Shown: piece by piece, positions 11,119 through 17,851 of the stretch
Layout: the number at the start of each line of letters is the position of its first letter
Position numbering within the stretch: position 1 is the stretch's first letter
Assembly: GCA_017408825.1 (NCBI GenBank)
Contig: JAFQTX010000014.1
Coordinates: 1 to 42,866 of the forward strand
Reading direction: 5' to 3'
From: Alistipes sp.
Lineage (GTDB): Bacteria; Bacteroidota; Bacteroidia; Bacteroidales; Rikenellaceae
Length of the DNA: 42,866 nucleotides
The notes under the pieces: model-generated
Database searches by the model: none
What the model was told of the DNA's origin: nothing
Seen by the model: only the letters and a program-made list of their open reading frames with translations
Position numbers and translations under genes: made by a program

Positions 11119-11150
11119 TTTGGATATAGAAAATTAAGAGTATATATTTG
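11119..11150 (+). promoter_or_regulatory. Distal promoter of the TonB-receptor leader
   Basis: TTTG (11119-11122), a 20-base spacer and TATATTTG (11143-11150) match the Bacteroidota consensus exactly. Just downstream, at the expected start of transcription, is a 9-bp inverted repeat AGTGTATTA / TAATACACT (11152-11160 and 11167-11175), which could be an operator or a 5' hairpin. A transcript from here would have a leader of about 195 bases before the receptor start at 11353. Confidence 0.6.
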
Positions 11151-11203
11151 CAGTGTATTAGTTGTGTAATACACTATATCTGACAACTAAAATTCACATA
11201 ATT

Positions 11204-11277: not shown

Positions 11278-11307
11278 TTTGGCGGGGGGGGGAAAGCATT
11301 ATCTTTG
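11278..11307 (+). promoter_or_regulatory. Proximal promoter with a G9 tract in its spacer
   Basis: TTTG (11278-11281) and a perfect TATCTTTG -7 element (11300-11307) are separated by 18 bases, of which nine are an uninterrupted G run (11284-11292). The Bacteroidota spacer optimum is about 19-21 bases, so gain of one or two G would bring spacing into the optimum and loss would move it away. Transcription should start near 11314, which rules out the ATG at 11311 and supports translation from 11353. Confidence 0.65.
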
Positions 11308-11352
11308 TAAATGAGTAACGAGAAATTAGAAATTGGCAAACAGATATTGGCT

Positions 11353-13746
11353 ATGAGAAACTTTAGTTTTACACTATTTATGGCAGTGGCGCTCATGAAC
11401 GTTGTAACTGCCACGGCACAGAAGATCGAGCTTACGGGTCGTGTCATTGACGAGAACAAGCAAAACATTCCATATGCTACCGTGGTGCTTACCACACCCG
11501 AGGGACAGGCAGCTGGTGGTGCAACATCGGAGAGTGGAGGATTCTCGCTCTACGCTCCTAAAGGCGAGTACACGCTCAACATCAGCTACATAGGTTACAC
11601 CACATACACCACGCAGCTCACACTATCGGAGCGCACCAACCTTGGCGACATAACCCTCAAGAGCAACTCGGAACAGATTGACGAGGTGGTGGTAACAGCA
11701 CAGCTCATACGACGTGAGGCTGACCGCTTCGTGGTAGACGTAGCCAACTCCCCCATTGCCCTGGGCAAGGATGGTGAGGAGCTGCTAAAGAGCGCACCAG
11801 GTGTATGGATTCAGGATGACAAAATCTCGATTAACGGCGCATCTGGCTCTAAAATCTACCTCAACGACCGCGAGGTAAAGCTCGACGACGCACAGCTTAT
11901 GGCCTATCTGCGTTCGCTCTCGGCAAACGACATTCAGCGTATAGAGGTAGTGCCACAGTCGGGTGCCGACTACGATGCATCAAGTTCGGGAGGCATCATC
12001 AAGATTACCACCAAACGCCGCCTCGACACAGGCCTTATGGGTTCGGCATCGTTTGTTGCAAATGGCACTAAGGGCATATACAACATAATGCCTTCAGTAT
12101 CGCTCAACTACAATCGTGGCAATCTAAATGCCTATGGTCGTGCATGGGCAGGAACAAACTCTCTGGACTACATAATGGACGAGCATACCGACTACACCTC
12201 ACAGACCATCATAGATGCTGCCTCAGAGCAAAAAGATAAGACCGTTTGGGGCGGTGCAAACATTGGCGTAGTGTACGACTTCAACAGTAAGCACTCGGCA
12301 GGCGTGGAGCTTCAGTACAACTACTTTGGTGGTGACAGCAAGACCAACACATGGACAGAGCATCAGCAGGGAGGCATCACAACACGAACTGATGGCAACT
12401 ACGCCAATAAGTATCATAGTCAGATGATTACTGCTACGGCAAACTACATCTATAAGCTCGATGACAAAGGCTCGGTACTCAAGCTTATCGGCGACTACAC
12501 CGACTCACGTATGCCTAACCACAACGACTATTTTGACACCACAATAGACCCTGCGACACTCATTGCTCGTGACTCTACACACCGCAACAACTCGTTTAGT
12601 AACTATCAGCTCACCACAGCGACACTTGCCCTTGAAAAGGTATTATCGCCAAAGGTAACACTTAAGGCGGGTGCTAAGTATACCTACAACACCAACTCCA
12701 ACACAGGCCTTTACGAGTATCTTAAGGGCGAGCAGTGGCTGAAGAACGAGATTAACAGCTACGATATTGGCTACACCGAGAATATCGGCGCAGCATACAT
12801 CATCGCCTCAGCACGCCTTGGCCGTCTGAGCCTTGTGGGTGGCTTACGTGGCGAGTACACATGGTTTCACTCGGCAGATGGCCTTGTAGAGCAGAACTAC
12901 TTCGACCTGTTCCCCAATGCCAACCTCTCATATGCCCTTACCAAAGATGGAGCATACTCGCTTATAGCGCAGTACTCTCGCGCCATCTCACGACCCTCGT
13001 TCTGGGCACTCTCGCCCAACGAGACAAAGATCTCGGAGTATATGATACAGCGAGGCAACCCCAACCTTAAGCCCTCGTATAACAACTCAGTATCGGTAAC
13101 CGCAGTGCTTAAGTATAAGTACACAATAACCATAGGTACACAGATTATGCAGAATGCCATACAGCAGGCTACAATCTCTGATAGCAATAACCCAGAGCTG
13201 CTCATTTTGCAGACTATAAACTACCCTACGCTCAACAACTTCTACGCCTCGGTAAACCTCCCATTCCAATTTACCAAGTGGTGGAGTGCAAACTTCAACC
13301 TTACGGGAATGTATATGGGTCAGCGCATCTACCCCAATGAGCCTGTGCGCCGCAACTTTATGGGCATGGAAACGTGCCAAATGGCATTTACGCTACCTAA
13401 GGAGTTTATCATCGAGGCAAGCGGACGATATATGCATGGTATACAGGCGGGTAACACCAAGATTAAGGACTTCGGTAATGTAGACATCTCGATAAAGAAA
13501 CGCCTTGTGAACAACAAGCTAACGCTGAAGCTCGGCGTAAACAACATTGTCCCTGTGAAGCAGACGATATCTATCGAGGAGCCTACGTTCAAGCGTACGA
13601 TGACCGTAGACCAGGCTTGGATGCGTACGGCGGTAAGTTTCTCAATATCGTATAACTTCAACTCTGGCAAGCAGTTCCAGGCTAAGAGTGTGGAGAGCGG
13701 TTCAGAGGAGGATCGTAGCCGACTTGGAAGCGGCGGAAATAACTAA
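11353..13746 (+). CDS. TonB-type outer-membrane receptor with carboxypeptidase-regulatory-like N-terminus
   Basis: A 797-residue outer-membrane protein. The start at 11353 gives a clean signal peptide (MRNFSFTLFMAVALMNVVTA, cleavage near ATAQ); the in-frame ATG at 11311 would add 14 polar residues and overlap the promoter. Order of domains: a carboxypeptidase-regulatory-like beta-sandwich (GRVIDENKQNIPYATVVL, about residues 25-105), a plug-like region (IDEVVVTAQ, then KSAPGVWI and SGGIIKITT), and a long beta-barrel with alternating aromatic strands. This resembles the 'outer membrane beta-barrel family' TonB receptors rather than SusC; no SusD partner follows. The substrate is unknown. A GIN-domain lipoprotein follows after 41 bases and probably shares the transcript. 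Confidence 0.88.
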   Translation: MRNFSFTLFMAVALMNVVTATAQKIELTGRVIDENKQNIPYATVVLTTPEGQAAGGATSESGGFSLYAPKGEYTLNISYIGYTTYTTQLTLSERTNLGDITLKSNSEQIDEVVVTAQLIRREADRFVVDVANSPIALGKDGEELLKSAPGVWIQDDKISINGASGSKIYLNDREVKLDDAQLMAYLRSLSANDIQRIEVVPQSGADYDASSSGGIIKITTKRRLDTGLMGSASFVANGTKGIYNIMPSVSLNYNRGNLNAYGRAWAGTNSLDYIMDEHTDYTSQTIIDAASEQKDKTVWGGANIGVVYDFNSKHSAGVELQYNYFGGDSKTNTWTEHQQGGITTRTDGNYANKYHSQMITATANYIYKLDDKGSVLKLIGDYTDSRMPNHNDYFDTTIDPATLIARDSTHRNNSFSNYQLTTATLALEKVLSPKVTLKAGAKYTYNTNSNTGLYEYLKGEQWLKNEINSYDIGYTENIGAAYIIASARLGRLSLVGGLRGEYTWFHSADGLVEQNYFDLFPNANLSYALTKDGAYSLIAQYSRAISRPSFWALSPNETKISEYMIQRGNPNLKPSYNNSVSVTAVLKYKYTITIGTQIMQNAIQQATISDSNNPELLILQTINYPTLNNFYASVNLPFQFTKWWSANFNLTGMYMGQRIYPNEPVRRNFMGMETCQMAFTLPKEFIIEASGRYMHGIQAGNTKIKDFGNVDISIKKRLVNNKLTLKLGVNNIVPVKQTISIEEPTFKRTMTVDQAWMRTAVSFSISYNFNSGKQFQAKSVESGSEEDRSRLGSGGNN

Positions 13747-13787: not shown

Positions 13788-14507
13788 ATGAAACGACTAC
13801 TTACAATCCTAACAGCAACACTCTGCCTTGCATCATGTACAATAGTGATTGGCGAGCCAGCTAAGGGCGAGATTATAGAGAAGAGTATCGCCATAAGTGG
13901 CGAGCCCGTAGCATTAGCCATATCACACGGCTTTGATGTGGTAGTAGACCCTACCCTGCCTCGTGGCGAGGTGCTGGTATCGACACATAGCGACCTTATG
14001 GACTTAGTAGACATCAGAATGGAGGATGCTACACTCAACATCAAGCTAAAAAGTACAACGCTGCGTGCCAAGACCCTAAGTGTGCGTGTCCCAGAGTATG
14101 ACTTTAATACCGTTGCTATCTCAGGTGGCGCAGACCTCGAGTGGCACAACAGCAAGGCAAACACACTCACGGTGGCTGCATCGGGAGGTGCTGACGCAGA
14201 GATTACGACACTAAGCGAGCGAGTGACACTCGCTGTATCGGGAGGTGCCAACGTCGAGCTTAAGGGCAGTAGCAAGCAGCTCAGCATTGCGGCATCAGGG
14301 GGCGCAGATGTGGATACTTCGGAGCTTAAGGCCGAGAGTGTCGAGGTATCGGCATCGGGAGGTGCCGACGTGGAGGTATACGCCACAAACAGCCTTAGCG
14401 TCGAGGCCTCAGGAGGTGCTGATGTAAGCTATACCGGCAACCCAGCAATAAAGAGCATCAATACGTCTGGAGCTGCAGACGTCTGGTCTACGGGCATAGA
14501 TGACTAA
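13788..14507 (+). CDS. GIN-domain (DUF2807) beta-helix lipoprotein
   Basis: A 239-residue lipoprotein: signal peptide with lipobox LASC (Cys17), then a right-handed beta-helix-like region with a repeated SGGADV motif at about 17-25 residue spacing (SGGADL, SGGADA, SGGANV, SGGADV three times, then SGAADV). This periodic SGGA pattern is the hallmark of the head GIN/DUF2807 domain, common in Bacteroidota cell-envelope proteins and without a known activity. It lies 41 bases after the TonB receptor. The repeats diverge at DNA level, so they are old protein repeats rather than a recent expansion. Confidence 0.85.
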   Translation: MKRLLTILTATLCLASCTIVIGEPAKGEIIEKSIAISGEPVALAISHGFDVVVDPTLPRGEVLVSTHSDLMDLVDIRMEDATLNIKLKSTTLRAKTLSVRVPEYDFNTVAISGGADLEWHNSKANTLTVAASGGADAEITTLSERVTLAVSGGANVELKGSSKQLSIAASGGADVDTSELKAESVEVSASGGADVEVYATNSLSVEASGGADVSYTGNPAIKSINTSGAADVWSTGIDD

Positions 14508-17781: not shown

Positions 17782-17851
17782 TCAAAGAGTTGCCCCACCA
17801 GTTTTGCGAACTGATCAGATATAACACTATCCACGTTCATAGCCCCCCCCC

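Follow-up and report, generated by a model that had tools for sequence, protein, structure and literature searches.

We propose that the promoter P2, at positions 11278 to 11307 of the Alistipes DNA analysed here, is tuned by slippage of a poly-G tract in the manner of porA and that it is part of a genus-wide set of such promoters. We consider this reading probable. The window, that is, the whole stretch of 42,866 nt from Alistipes sp. (Rikenellaceae; contig JAFQTX010000014.1, positions 1-based on the forward strand), carries on the + strand a TTTG element (11278..11281), a run of nine G (11284..11292) which fills half of the 18-base spacer, and the -7 element TATCTTTG (11300..11307). This architecture was described in the initial annotation and is present exactly as claimed. 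The two boxes correspond to the TTTG near -33 and the TAnnTTTG near -7 of sigma-ABfr promoters, which together with a variable AT-rich spacer have been described in Bacteroides thetaiotaomicron (PMC7366714). As in porA, the homopolymer lies between two promoter boxes, here assigned by sequence match.

A run of nine G is not in itself exceptional in this organism. The window contains 66, 10 and 1 runs of G or C with lengths of four, five and six, none of seven or eight, and two of nine. Words of seven G are only mildly unusual there, with six matches, a number which is reached by 7 of 100 shuffled sequences. The genome to which the window belongs holds 33 tracts of G8 or G9 (24 G9, 9 G8, none longer) and five of G7, and thus G9 as such is common there. 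The length profile climbs from 5 (G7) over 9 (G8) to 24 (G9) and then ends. Only two of the 33 tracts are inside promoter spacers, both of 18 bases; since the other 31 are elsewhere, G tracts must arise for other reasons too. What goes beyond chance is the placement of the tract and not the G9 itself: the genome has two matches for G9 with a subsequent TAnnTTTG and none for the backward control. The second G9 of the window (17843-17851, - strand) follows a hairpin and a T run at a gene end. Genome-wide, six of the 33 tracts come after T runs and six adjoin a TAA, TAG or TGA triplet, irrespective of frame. An intramolecular G-quadruplex at P2 was rejected by reasoning, since there is a single G run.

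The arrangement recurs throughout the genus. In a set of 180 Alistipes genomes, one genome per species, a tract of G8 or longer within TTTG..TAnnTTTG is matched 218 times in 101 genomes, against three matches for the pattern read backwards; the figure of 218 is a table sum in which nested matches are counted twice and some matches use a nested TTTG. The C8 version of the pattern has 13 matches in seven genomes, seven of them in one species (G088), and one match when read backwards (G150). A chance origin of the G tracts in the spacers was rejected on these orientation and backward controls. Individual sites were taken from the main pattern up to genome G122 and, for later genomes, from a narrower search of the family, in which 69 of 268 genomes matched with at least 119 sites, two of the 69 being outside the genus (backward control: two, in G180 and G206). 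In a species-genome collection of 84,980 species, a still narrower pattern returned 78 stretches. Sixty-six of these are from Alistipes or Rikenellaceae, isolate C35 (G144) included; among the remaining 12, five precede signal-peptide-like open reading frames in other Bacteroidales, three in one Muribaculaceae-titled genome. The Muribaculaceae-titled HAN050 has spacer promoters with G11, G9 and G9 (L241, L281, L282) before large exported-looking proteins and is perhaps an independent case. In the viral collection IMG/VR, 4 of 20 matches are Alistipes-like in appearance and the others look unrelated.

Two further observations concern these sites. In G088, C9 replaces G9 at seven promoters (on C20, C37, C44, C48, C63, C70 and C74), all with a spacer of 21. 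Several poly-G promoters are situated at most about 160 bases from contig ends (G012:C13, G020:C3 and C4, G055:C4 and C5, G098:C129, G166:C90); repeated copies of promoter plus leader may be breaking the assemblies there.

The spacing of the poly-G promoters is off the optimum. We compared 131 poly-G sites from fetched loci, merged where they share the same downstream protein start and restricted to spacers of 15-26, with ordinary promoters of the same DNA. Ordinary promoters have spacers of 19-20 in 117 of 181 cases and of 18 in only 7, which by this count makes 19-20 the optimum of the genus; the initial annotation gave about 19-21 bases for Bacteroidota. The genome of the window behaves likewise (19-20 in 59 and 18 in 4 of 99 ordinary matches listed out of 298, P2 omitted). 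The poly-G promoters, in contrast, have spacer 18 in 68 of 131 cases, 19-20 in 36 and 21-22 in 21; with one vote per protein family, 18 is found in 25 of 47 families and 19-20 in 13. The dominant tract length is G9 (98 of 131 sites). With its spacer of 18, P2 falls one short of the ordinary 19-20, and a gain of one or two Gs would give it the optimal distance. A change of spacing would thus cross the optimum as in porA, as judged from spacing counts rather than activity.

Two layouts can be distinguished. In class A (90 of 131 sites; 58 with spacer 18 and 13 with 21), the tract begins 0-3 bases after the -33 box and is followed by an A/T stretch such as AATTTT. In class B (37 sites; 23 with spacer 19 and 9 with 18), the elements come in the opposite order, with the tract directly against the -7 box and a typical sequence of TTTGGAAAATTCGTG9TAAATTTG; this class had no match in the viral collection. 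As class B G9 sites are mostly at 19 and 21 of the 131 sites are at 21-22, a spacer of 18 is not the rule for all. The spacer minus the tract measures 9, 10 and 12 bases in 51, 51 and 17 of the 131 sites. Both the boxes and the motifs upstream of them match those of ordinary promoters but are more sharply defined, which makes use of the ordinary polymerase probable. The upstream profile likewise lends no support to a regulon operator upstream of the poly-G promoters.

The genes behind these promoters mostly encode exported proteins. An open reading frame starts within 250 bases at 114 of the 131 sites, and the product is predicted to be exported in 102 of these 114 cases, compared with 46 of 86 for ordinary promoters of the same loci. 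Here exported refers to a home-made signal-peptide rule and not to SignalP, and export is no proof of surface location; the control (118 sites), coming from the same loci, stems from the neighbourhood of the poly-G sites. Counted by family, 39 of 47 downstream protein families are mostly exported, and 12 of the 114 proteins are without a predicted signal peptide. Pfam was run on 90 of the 114 proteins, most receptor orthologs and the open reading frames of an RNA-like family being left out. It found M16 peptidases (9), OMP_b-brl barrels (7), DUF3575 (5), redoxins (3), Ig-like (2) and BACON (2) domains and one GntR regulator, among others. These families together with the export counts point to surface molecules as targets, as in porA.

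The RNA-like family just mentioned, which one group of poly-G sites drives in place of a convincing protein, is present in multiple copies in Alistipes (L167, L168, L121, L158, L156, L169, L174, L172, L047). It consists of a poly-G promoter, a 5′ hairpin, the invariant core CTGGGATGnnGACGCAACTCAC and a terminator-like hairpin, usually with a T run. In the nine sequences, 7 of 28 predicted pairs have double-sided changes. Eight of the nine loci were covered by an Rfam search at gathering scores and gave no match; among 20 loci mostly without a convincing open reading frame, the only Rfam match was a tRNA on the strand opposite to the promoter (L046).

At the locus itself, P2 precedes an outer-membrane beta-barrel protein of 797 amino acids (11353..13746, + strand), in which Pfam, run on the longer open reading frame, finds OMP_b-brl_3 and CarbopepD_reg_2. 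The longest open reading frame starts at 11311, only three bases past the -7 box of P2. However, the true start, which we took from the signal peptide, is likely to be 11353, where the signal peptide is clean as judged by eye; the gap between the -7 box and the gene would then be 45 bases. The gene had been called a TonB receptor. It does encode an outer-membrane barrel with carboxypeptidase-regulatory-like domains, but Pfam detects no TonB plug domain at E ≤ 0.001 and the name is therefore loose. The co-oriented GIN lipoprotein gene reported behind it is indeed there: it lies 41 bases downstream (13788..14507, + strand) and has a DUF2807 (head GIN) domain by Pfam. Both genes probably form one operon.

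A second promoter, P1, is found upstream on the + strand (11119..11150). It reads TTTG-N20-TATATTTG, has ordinary spacing and is without a G tract. Two bases after its -7 box begins the palindrome GTGTATTA-N6-TAATACAC, that is, GTGTATTAGTTGTGTAATACAC (11153..11174, + strand), for which 0.04 occurrences are expected in shuffled sequences and which is retained in most of 30 ortholog upstream regions. Judging by its position and retention, the palindrome is a probable operator or leader element of P1. A strict pattern finds P1 or its -7 box in 21 of these 30 regions, a set which includes the own locus. Since this ordinary upstream promoter serves the operon, a full on/off switch at P2 is unlikely.

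The tract is maintained among the orthologs of the barrel gene. Matches to the barrel protein are found in 122 of the 180 genus genomes, and upstream regions were compared in the 30 genomes with fetched loci, the own genome included. A tract of G7 or longer is in the promoter spacer of 18 of the 30, and in 17 of these 18 it is an uninterrupted G8-G9; the other 12 have no tract. The proteins of the tract-bearing orthologs are 67-80% identical to the barrel of the window, and the tract adjoins the -33 box in one part of them and the -7 box in another. This persistence despite protein divergence, together with the shifting position, argues for selection for a tract in the spacer rather than for a binding site at a fixed place. 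Six of the 18 tract-bearing orthologs lack P1 by the strict pattern within 260 bases, one of which (G070) has a P1-like box. Counting G in related genomes had been proposed in the initial annotation. Tract length or spacer does differ in some orthologs, but 14 of the 17 with an uninterrupted tract of G8 or longer keep spacer 18, the other three having 19.

We suggest that tuning at P2 would proceed in the following way. P2 would be an ordinary promoter of the Bacteroidota primary sigma factor in which half of the spacer is filled by the G tract. Replication slippage would add or remove Gs, thereby shift the distance from the -33 to the -7 box and, with it, the promoter strength. The present G9 with spacer 18 would be weak, G10 and G11 with spacers 19 and 20 would be strong, and G8 with spacer 17 would be weaker still. 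With P1 providing the basal supply, slippage at P2 could tune the amounts of barrel and GIN lipoprotein from cell to cell, and the same device is found again in the 101 genomes, which carry between one and about five such promoters each, mostly before exported proteins. We infer that strength follows spacing, that Gs are gained and lost reversibly and often, and that P2, too, undergoes this change. The initial annotation had it that receptor and GIN lipoprotein expression is either toggled or tuned by the number of Gs. The spacer architecture fits the predicted tuning; full toggling is unlikely given P1, from which the basal supply of the operon probably comes, so that the effect of P2 would be one of tuning.

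Tract length does vary between near-identical copies at other loci. The tract of the isolate genome G004 (CHKCI003, L116) is G10 with spacer 18 and that of the IMG/VR contig L226 is G9 with spacer 17, neither spacer being at the optimum. This one G is the sole difference in the first 2377 aligned bp, in which other homopolymers up to A8 are identical. The goat-gut genome G055 contains a 270-bp stretch of promoter and signal peptide twice, once with G10 and spacer 20 and once with G8 and spacer 18; apart from this, the copies agree over roughly the first 250 bp and have two substitutions near the end of the stretch. The promoters of the receptor orthologs in G118 (G8, spacer 18) and G042 (G9, spacer 19) share their sequence except for one G. 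Sequencing errors could in principle account for the differences between G004 and L226 and within G055. More broadly, 5 of 14 site pairs differ in tract length among the pairs listed with flank identity of at least 68%. When further copies were sought, the viral collection contained only L226 itself of this element. A second allele was sought for three other viral-collection sites: for L216 none was found in the 180 genus genomes (a search without positive control), for L233 a single 76% relative among the 180, and for L228, sought in G004 alone, only short motif matches. Lost mismatch repair as the cause of tract instability was rejected, because the own genome encodes MutS1, as do 163 of the 180 genus genomes (158 over the cut-off). 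With MutS1 present, the slippage rate may be modest.

The strongest competing explanation, which we regard as unlikely though worth serious attention, is a fixed design: G9 with spacer 18 would be static and selected, the promoter would be weak or would rely on an activator or on DNA twist, and length changes would be rare noise that is purged. Spacer 18 is indeed rather uniform for a freely slipping tract, at just over half of all poly-G sites and in most intact receptor orthologs. Furthermore, of the five listed pairs whose 60-base flanks are 90% or more identical, four are equal in tract length, the fifth being the G055 copies, and G107 carries G8 plus one A in place of the G9 of its relatives, consistent with a G-to-A change, with spacer 18 kept. 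A fixed spacer, however, does not need a homopolymer, nor would its tract be expected to move within the spacer between orthologs or to be replaceable by a C tract. The number of Gs, and with it the spacing, is not the same in near-identical copies, and no additional operator is seen among the upstream motifs, which match those of ordinary promoters.

It is improbable that the tracts have no function, in which case mutation would extend intergenic G tracts of this genus to about nine and some would happen to fall into promoters. The 31 tracts outside promoter spacers in the own genome and the sharp stop of the length profile at nine would fit; the strong bias for G over C in the spacers (218 versus 13), the conservation of the tract over about 30% protein divergence and the preference for genes of exported proteins do not. 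That the tract is a regulator binding site or the mark of an alternative sigma factor regulon is highly improbable: the long class B consensus does stand before unrelated genes, but the tract varies in position relative to both boxes, the boxes and upstream motifs are ordinary and merely sharper, and the C9 for G9 in G088 points to a length device more than to a factor that binds G.

For slippage tuning at P2 thus speak the placement of the tract, the off-optimum spacing, the near-identical copies which differ in length, the maintenance in orthologs, the C9 promoters of G088, the length profile and the exported targets. Against it weigh the spacer of 18 in 14 of 17 orthologs, the dominance of G9, the equal length in four of five close pairs, the presence of MutS1 and the bypass of P2 by P1. 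A more far-reaching proposal, for which we see the chances as evenly balanced, extends slippage tuning to the whole set in the 101 genomes. Some 39 exported families and the small-RNA-like family would have recruited the device; the tract would hover around nine through mutation, and the remaining spacer bases would set the default state of each gene, 9 bases plus G9 giving a weak 18 and 10 bases plus G9 a strong 19. A population could then display many combinations of surface states without a recombinase.

If true, slippage could explain cell-to-cell differences of the surface and the escape from immunity or phages in a common gut genus. Surface variation in gut Bacteroidales has been described mainly via inversion, and such a system would be missed by tools that look for inversions. 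It can be checked directly by counting Gs in metagenome reads. The poly-G promoters are moreover a natural series of spacer lengths with which the tolerance of the Bacteroidota RNA polymerase could be gauged.

In gut Bacteroidales, phase-variable surface molecules (capsule, SusC/SusD) are controlled via invertible promoters (PMC12632263). The control of the surface within the same order is alike, but there it is brought about by invertase-driven DNA inversion and not by tract length (PMC12632263). The statement of the initial annotation that surface phase variation in this order proceeds mostly by inversion agrees with this 2025 review, which names inversion and in its text uses neither "slipped" nor "homopolymer" (PMC12632263). 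Alistipes is absent from another 2025 review, one on phase variation (PMC11868660). For Bacteroides fragilis, slippage in a four-C run of a polysaccharide locus was raised as a possibility in 2010 (PMC3090145). Among the titles listed from the open-licence PubMed Central literature, none is on promoters or slippage in Alistipes, and none for Bacteroides, Bacteroidetes or Bacteroidota is on this subject.

Other phyla offer parallels as well. In opc, fetA and Bordetella fim, a homopolymer in or beside the promoter sets the spacing. The spacing-setting homopolymer is shared with Alistipes, but theirs is poly-C and they belong to other phyla. In Campylobacter the poly-G tracts are mostly frameshift switches inside genes, whereas the Alistipes tracts considered here sit in promoter spacers. 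Common to both are many G/C tracts per genome, which are hypermutable in the Campylobacter phasome (PMC6321876, PMC8355987). The closest known case is porA of Neisseria meningitidis. There, too, a poly-G tract lies between the promoter elements, as at P2, and its length alters the level of an outer-membrane protein and does not act as a plain on/off switch (PMC3639595). Unlike porA, the proposed Alistipes device belongs to another phylum with another sigma factor (TTTG / TAnnTTTG, spacing 19-20) and stands before 47 downstream protein families in a single genus.
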